DNA from: Thermocrispum agreste DSM 44070
GTDB lineage: Bacteria > Actinomycetota > Actinomycetes > Mycobacteriales > Pseudonocardiaceae
Length of the DNA: 64,000 nt
NCBI RefSeq assembly: GCF_000427905.1
Contig: NZ_ATYX01000009.1
Location: forward strand, 172,532 to 236,531
Reading direction: 5' to 3'
Part shown: positions 60,229 through 60,832 of the stretch, one piece after another
Layout of the letters: the number at the start of each line of letters is the position of its first letter
How positions within the stretch are numbered: the first letter of the stretch is position 1
The notes under the pieces: generated by a model
Database searches by the model: none
What the model was told of the DNA's origin: nothing
What the model saw: the letters and a program-made list of their open reading frames with translations, nothing else
Translations under genes and position numbers: made by a program

Positions 60229-60762
60229 TCACCGGAAGCGGCGGCGTATCACCAGCACGGCCGAATCCACCTGGGGCGGCGGACGGAACGCCTTCCGCGG
60301 CACCGTCCTGCCGATCTCCGTCCGCCAACGCGGCGGGACACGCGCCGGATCGGAGAACCGGCGCGCCGCCGCGCGTTGCAGCACCAGATCCGCGGCGACC
60401 ATGCCCGACGGAGTCTTGAGCAGTTTGCGCACCAGGTCGCTGGTGATCGAATACGGCGGGTTCGCCACGACACGGAACGGCCGGCGCGGCAGCACCAGCT
60501 CACGGGCGTCGATCCGCAGCACGGTCACCGGCTGGCCGGCGAAGCGCTCCTGGAGTACGTCGGCCCGCCCAGGATGGGGTTCGATCGCCAGCACGCGGGC
60601 CCCGGCAGCGACCAGGTGCCTGGTCAGGGCACCGGTACCAGCCCCGATGTCCAGCACGTACTGCCCGGGGCGCACGTTCGCGTCAGCGACGACCTTCGCT
60701 GCCCATTCGTCGACAAGCGGATGCCAGCCCCACGCCCGGCGCGATCGCCGAGCGCCGGACAC
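60229..60762 (-). CDS. Erm(37)-like 23S rRNA adenine N6-methyltransferase
   Basis: 177 residues. RRSRRAWGWHPLVDEWAAKV, LDIGAGTGALTRHLVAAGAR (SAM motif I) and RVVANPPYSITSDLV (catalytic NPPY) match the short Erm of mycobacteria, which likewise lacks the C-terminal helical domain of longer Erm proteins. Such enzymes methylate A2058 or its neighbours and lower binding of macrolides, lincosamides and streptogramins. GTG 60762 is forced by an in-frame stop just upstream. A WhiB7-style promoter lies at 60795-60832. Confidence 0.82.
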   Translation of the reverse strand: MSGARRSRRAWGWHPLVDEWAAKVVADANVRPGQYVLDIGAGTGALTRHLVAAGARVLAIEPHPGRADVLQERFAGQPVTVLRIDARELVLPRRPFRVVANPPYSITSDLVRKLLKTPSGMVAADLVLQRAAARRFSDPARVPPRWRTEIGRTVPRKAFRPPPQVDSAVLVIRRRFR

Positions 60763-60794
60763 GGCGCACCATCACCAAGTACGGCATGGCCCAG

Positions 60795-60832
60795 ACGTTA
60801 TTGATCACCGCCGCCGGAGTCCAATGATTTTT
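60795..60832 (-). promoter_or_regulatory. WhiB7-style promoter of the erm-like gene
   Basis: On the minus strand AAAAATCA, directly followed by TTGGAC, 18 bases, then TAACGT. An AT-rich block set against the -35 box is the known mark of WhiB7-controlled resistance genes. Confidence 0.5.

Follow-up and report, generated by a model that had tools for sequence, protein, structure and literature searches.

Does an intrinsic macrolide-resistance gene that sits behind a WhiB7-style promoter answer to that promoter only, or does it also sense the drug while it is translated? Erm(37)-type genes have been described as controlled by WhiB7, a regulator that responds to ribosome stress in general (PMC4128351, PMC10727445; here and below, papers are cited for what their accessible portions state). 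The question is raised by an erm gene in the window (the whole 64,000-nucleotide stretch of Thermocrispum agreste DSM 44070 DNA that was analysed). We consider it fairly probable, from comparison of sequences, that this intrinsic Erm(37)-type gene stands under two locks, a WhiB7 promoter and a drug-sensing leader that overlaps the erm start. The second lock would lie in a tiny out-of-frame gene, which looks like a built-in antibiotic sensor kept by relatives across many soil bacteria.

The erm gene and its promoter

The gene is read on the minus strand from a GTG start codon (60760–60762) to a stop at 60229, and its product of 177 aa is a predicted Erm(37)-type 23S rRNA adenine methyltransferase, as judged from Pfam, NCBIfam and a tree (60229–60762). 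The preliminary description had called the protein short and Erm(37)-like, and this is borne out by the top NCBIfam models, Erm37 with 212 bits and Erm41 with 206 bits, although both scores stay under the curated cut-offs of 350 each; we read the protein as a relative of Erm(37) and Erm(41), not as either named allele. The broad NCBIfam Erm model is not reached (122 bits vs a cut-off of 212), and the ksgA model gives 97 bits vs a cut-off of 171. Pfam RrnaAD (PF00398) matches with 92.9 bits, and since the alignment is confined to model positions 19–191 of 263, the window Erm is without a C-terminal domain, as are the short Erms of about 175–200 aa. In a tree of 45 proteins, for which 4 of the 11 long-form loci requested passed the motif filter, 29 short Erms fall into one clade (100/99) and six KsgA are separated off by a branch (100/100), with the named ErmX, Erm50 and Erm51 closer to the KsgA branch than the short Erms are. 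The protein thus carries the RrnaAD domain and is nearer to Erm than to KsgA, which supports an Erm 23S rRNA methyltransferase, predicted to methylate A2058. A KsgA-like enzyme, one of the outcomes that the preliminary description had named as refuting it, was rejected on the ksgA score below cut-off and on the position of KsgA apart from the short Erms in the tree; the KsgA of the source genome is a separate gene on contig 1.

On one side, erm is flanked by a gene for a Gfo/Idh-type oxidoreductase, beside which an XerD-like recombinase was recognised by reading only, and on the other by ParA-like, ScpA-like and ScpB genes, in agreement with the earlier placement of erm inside a run of chromosome-segregation genes. 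Thermocrispum municipale has the identical gene order around erm, with about 0.8 kb extra between oxidoreductase and erm that contains a 128-codon ORF. Plasmid records held no close relative of the window Erm, all 248 matches being below 60% identity. A single-sequence search of genome contigs returned nine loci, five of which (L010–L014) are RrnaAD-type matches of 29–34% identity in archaeal MAGs, either KsgA or other methyltransferases.

Upstream of erm, an AT block had been reported to abut TTGGAC, with TAACGT 18 bases on, and the three lie exactly there on the minus strand: AAAAATCA (60832–60825) adjoins TTGGAC (60824–60819), which is followed after an 18-base gap by TAACGT (60800–60795). 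WblC/WhiB7 promoters have the layout GAAAWY, 3 nt, TKGMNN, 16–19 nt, TANNNT (PMC7157823). The erm promoter follows this published layout in its box, 3-nt gap, -35 element, spacer length and TANNNT, the best register being AAAAAT-CAT-TGGACT-17-TAACGT, with the first G of GAAAWY replaced by A and a -35 element one base off the earlier TTGGAC. In this register, the WhiB7 box AAAAAT (60827–60832, minus strand) stands 3 nt upstream of the -35 element TGGACT (60818–60823, minus strand), which fits TKGMNN, and the -10 element TAACGT (60795–60800, minus strand) ends 7 nt before the ATG of a mini-ORF. The box was placed by pattern search and by the AT block in related promoters, and the -10 element by the sequence and a survey of -10 elements.

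The loose WhiB7 pattern AAAAATNNNTNGNNNN{16,19}TANNNT has a single match in the window and is absent from all of 100 shuffles. It has two matches in the 4.19-Mb genome of the organism itself, namely the erm promoter and a site upstream of whiB7, and the pattern read backwards has none; as the search pattern was composed after both sites had been seen, it is the rarity that counts as evidence, not the match itself. Furthermore, an AT block at the matching distance from the -10 element is found in 50 of 59 related promoters (19 of 26 representatives, with 7 lacking it) and in 0 to 3 of 59 in each of ten control windows; the -10 element of one locus, L101 (CACGGT), was set by hand. A chance promoter was rejected on the shuffles, the whole-genome rarity and the AT block in related promoters.

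The source genome encodes five WhiB proteins, one of which (L005) ends in RGRPRK-KHPVAA, an AT-hook, and we take the RGRP motif to be the mark of WhiB7. A WhiB7 with an AT-hook, the absence of which would have refuted the preliminary description, is thus found in the genome, and the promoter pattern of erm recurs at the gene that encodes it. Altogether, it is well supported by these sequence data that erm is a member of the WhiB7/WblC regulon with a WhiB7-activated promoter. Ahead of whiB7 itself (minus strand of L005; L126) lies a long 5' leader containing a strong inverted repeat, GAAGGCCGCGG...CCGCGGCCTTC, an arrangement that attenuation would lead one to expect.

A mini-ORF across the erm start codon

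In WblC/WhiB7 promoters, most transcripts start 7 or 8 bp past the -10 element (PMC7157823). The predicted transcript start of erm lies at the promoter that the preliminary description had proposed, but it falls at a mini-ORF that this description had overlooked and that overlaps the erm start. A start site elsewhere, the remaining outcome named there as refuting, is thereby half borne out. The mini-ORF (MPYLVMVRRVRRSAIAPGVGLASACRRMGSEGRR, 34 codons, 60683–60787, minus strand, +1 frame relative to erm; supported by the survey and the codon tests below) begins with MPYLVMVRRVRR..., opens at an ATG at 60787, 7 bases past the -10 element, and crosses the erm GTG out of frame. Its transcript is probably leaderless. 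As in ErmDL-type leaders, a +X+ motif (R/K-x-R/K) lies early in the ORF, here Arg9-Val10-Arg11 (60755–60763, minus strand), and the Val10 codon (60760–60758) begins on the final base of the erm start codon. Located at the predicted transcript start, the mini-ORF probably adds a second, translational control.

Because a matching arrangement was seen in the first relatives read, genomes were surveyed for short Erms. These occur at E ≤ 1e-33 in 46 of 284 genomes of one order, 35 of the 46 being from one genus; a short Erm was also found in 1 of 396 genomes of a genus taken for Mycobacterium on weak marks. The resulting set comprises 63 loci, 59 picked by similarity to the window protein and 4 added on sight. 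The former are L007–L009 from the contig search, then L006, L015, L017, L045, L059 and L062–L067 at 125 bits or more, and 45 of the 46 genomes at E ≤ 1e-33, the 46th being L065, already included; the latter are L018, L019, L058 and L073 (88–119 bits), added because the overlap or a short frame was seen. L016, a duplicate of L006, was dropped, and L022 and L058 represent a single gene. As the erm start we took the in-frame start lying furthest upstream (set by hand in L018), and 30 representatives were defined as less than 85% identical over 144 nt.

The mini-ORF is present in all 63 loci (30 once near-copies are removed). By the rule used, the erm start is GTG in 63 of 63, and the leader starts with ATG in 61 and with GTG in 2. 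A TANNNT box ends 6–8 nt before the mini-ORF in 58 of 63 loci, and erm starts 22–31 nt into the leader in 60 of 63. All 63 leaders carry the +X+ motif, which in 62 is an Arg-x-Arg straddling the erm start, with Ala (39), Val (21) or Gly (3) as X and with X at the junction as codon 7–15, most commonly 11; L009 has no R-x-R at the junction and an RLR two codons further on. Three of the five loci without the box (L018, L019 and L119) have a Shine-Dalgarno-like 4-mer before the mini-ORF, and the other two, L067 and L101, have neither a rule-based -10 element nor such a 4-mer. The 257-aa Erms of L018 and L019 have the overlap although they fall outside the short-Erm clade.

Some loci depart from the common arrangement. 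At L022/L058 (genome G031) the short erm is split over two frames with the leader intact, and may be broken or misread. In family f56 (L120, L121, L123 and L125), the WGWH of the short Erm begins at about residue 18–35 instead of about 11, so that more erm codons would lie beneath the leader. Outside the 63, L029 has an overlapping leader, MPMIMRFRG, with the erm start 22 nt inside, Arg-Phe-Arg just before the GTG and AAGG before the leader.

Rival readings of the mini-ORF

The whole-genome promoter test above and the codon, Shine-Dalgarno, joint and separate-leader tests that follow were framed after the pattern had been seen. Classical attenuation, in which the leader ends before erm and a stall unmasks a Shine-Dalgarno sequence, does not describe this arrangement, since the leader overlaps erm, no Shine-Dalgarno 4-mer (GGAG, GAGG, AGGA or AAGG) precedes erm in any of the 63 loci, and folding is not unusual. 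A weak pairing to the 16S tail does exist before erm (median -5.4 vs -3.1 kcal/mol at random positions). A conserved 5' hairpin was not found for the overlapping type (mean z -0.39, plain shuffles, 110 nt); dinucleotide shuffles over 140 nt gave a mean z of -0.48 for 30 loci, with one of the 30 below -2, at -4.0. The pairing probability of the erm GTG is 0.77 on average, a value that comes without a baseline and is given no weight here.

With no usual Shine-Dalgarno sequence and a start inside the leader, erm could be kept low by a drug-independent brake, the leader diverting ribosomes and macrolides not acting through it at all. We regard such a brake as unlikely, as it leaves unexplained why the ErmDL motif Arg-x-Arg is kept near the beginning of the leader at all 63 loci and why +X+ leaders recur, as separate ORFs, at other erm-like loci. 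Indeed, 32 of 48 such loci, mostly long-form, have a separate, putatively leaderless +X+ mini-ORF (near-copies retained; L044 and L071 left out), whereas control windows of seven kinds, placed further upstream, within the gene, downstream or antisense, gave 0 of 48 each, 0 of 336 in total. The separate leaders lie 139–388 nt before the matched stretch (e.g. MGTLLQSCVAFARLRRA, MCASIRLRRA) and carry motifs of the RLR, RPR or RIR type behind WhiB7-like promoters, for example at L046, L037, L040 and L060. Folding of 22 of the 32 loci (140 nt before the match) gave a mean z of -1.1, with 6 below -2. A short frame alone does not go with overlap, since a separate leader is found at L068 and L074, where the open frames are only 204 and 213 aa long. 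Taken together, actinobacterial erm genes seem to have +X+ leaders at WhiB7-like promoters as a general feature, of which the Erm(37) clade shows the compact, overlapping form.

The mini-ORF might also have no function of its own, erm being an ordinary WhiB7 target and the overlapping ORF a by-product of coding constraints on the Erm N-terminus. The WhiB7 promoter is present, and erm(37) has been treated as an exception to leader control on account of its place in the WhiB7 regulon (PMC4128351). We nevertheless hold this reading to be highly improbable: as far as its first two Arg, the conserved portion of the mini-ORF sits upstream of erm; its start lies near the predicted transcript start in 58 of 63 loci; and its frame shows synonymous-type change. 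Among the differing codons of the 30 representatives, the synonymous share is 0.24 in the leader frame (362 of 1,510), against 0.072 in the erm frame (108 of 1,506) and 0.075 in the third frame (110 of 1,473). Between leader start and GTG, the erm frame is closed by a stop in 27 of 30, and the leader and third frames are both open in 30 of 30 each; as the third frame is equally open over this short stretch, openness alone is uninformative on the leader. A joint test for box, open leader and Arg-x-Arg is passed by 57 of the 63 erm starts, or by 24 of the 30 when representatives are counted, but by none of 4,543 background GTGs taken from the DNA of these representatives.

Overlapping frames would also allow a stalled ribosome to slip +1 into the erm frame and make a leader-Erm fusion, and telithromycin-provoked shifting on the ermC leader is known (PMC5009743). 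We give this little credence in view of the codons at the junction. No common slippery codon is found there, because X varies, and the GTG looks like a real, selected start codon, since its middle T is free in the leader frame (CGN = Arg) and yet occurs in 30 of 30 representatives; the equivalent position of the preceding leader codon has C in 12, T in 16, A in 1 and G in 1. Invariant in 30 of 30 are each of the start G, T and G as well as C at +5 and G at +6. The latter two fit double coding, being needed by the leader Arg codon after X, and residue 2 of Erm varies (Ser, Pro, Ala, Val, Arg) despite them. Highly improbable, too, is that a stall near the 5' end mainly slows mRNA decay and so raises Erm output with no special start step: ermC mRNA is stabilised by a ribosome stalled close to its 5' end, and the putative stall sites at the junction are no more than 50 nt from where the mini-ORF starts, but the overlap of stall site and start codon, with erm starting 22–31 nt into the leader in 60 of 63 loci, would have no explanation.

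A proposed mechanism and its relation to known systems

Under the two locks that we favour, ribosome stress would act through WhiB7 to activate the erm promoter. The mRNA would have its 5' end at or beside the ATG of the out-of-frame leader, where ribosomes would load and, with no drug present, translate past the erm GTG in a frame that is not its own. A macrolide or ketolide in the tunnel would make them halt at Arg-x-Arg, with a P-site codon that shares a base with the erm GTG. On ErmDL, telithromycin and erythromycin both stall the ribosome with the P site at X of Arg-x-Arg and the A site at the Arg that follows (PMC8298421); here, the P site would hold leader codon 10, two bases beyond the first base of the GTG. 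Unmasking of a downstream start cannot work, since the stalled ribosome would cover the erm start. We thus hypothesize that the short peptidyl-tRNA is lost, by drop-off or splitting, and that the same ribosome or its small subunit starts Erm at the GTG. Methylated ribosomes would stop stalling, and the switch would close itself. For this second lock, conservation establishes the mini-ORF, whereas how it may act is our inference.

Direct precedent for the release step was not found in the literature searched. The ribosome splitter HflX is under WhiB7 control (PMC10727445, PMC13393426), which would fit the proposed release and restart. On ErmDL, the need for +X+ is weaker when erythromycin causes the stall than when telithromycin does (PMC8298421). 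Methylation by Erm is costly without drug in other species (PMC13393426), which offers a reason for a drug-specific second lock; if true, such a lock would explain how the cost of ribosome methylation is avoided when the stress is not a macrolide.

We tentatively go one step further, with an idea that we would place somewhat short of probable, namely a translational AND gate of WhiB7 and macrolide, in which the stall site of a leaderless leader ORF is the start region of the resistance gene and only a drug-stopped, peptide-shedding ribosome starts Erm. The gate would span the Erm(37) clade throughout the Actinomycetes, perhaps with the tuberculosis bacillus among them, and is undescribed in the accessible portions of the literature searched. 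If true, it would be a start mechanism with stalling and initiation on one codon. The element is short and conserved, and its confirmation would alter the gene models of many actinomycete erm genes, perhaps also of mycobacterial ones, together with the control presumed for them.

In their products, Erm(37) (M. tuberculosis Rv1988) and Erm(41) (M. abscessus) resemble the window protein, being short Erms whose models match it best; they come from another genus, and the comparison is one of protein models and regulon, not of leaders. erm41 is a direct WhiB7 ChIP target (PMC10727445), and M. tuberculosis erm(37) belongs to the WhiB7 regulon (PMC4128351). The latter paper, of 2014, singles out M. 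tuberculosis erm(37) as notably exempt from the uORF control that governs erm genes, whereas the data from its relatives, including L059 of the genus taken for Mycobacterium on weak marks, argue the reverse. A leader overlapping an Erm(37)-type start was not found described in the accessible portions of the literature searched, a scope outside which most subscription papers fall.

Several known leaders share part of the arrangement. ErmDL-type (+X+) leaders likewise have Arg-x-Arg early in a short ORF before erm (PMC8298421), but the window leader is probably leaderless, overlaps the erm start out of frame and has no special fold (mean z -0.48). Leaderless leader peptides have been described in S. 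lividans for amino-acid genes (PMC8079986). The whiB7/wblC leader also contains an actinobacterial uORF that senses ribosome-targeting drugs (PMC10727445), yet this uORF acts on transcription termination in a long leader and not on the start codon of its target. In ermC attenuation, too, erm translation is under the control of a drug-sensing leader ORF (PMC13410324, PMC10219788, the latter showing ermC only, as far as its accessible portion goes). There, stalling frees a masked start further on, whereas the start of the window erm would lie beneath the stalled ribosome itself.
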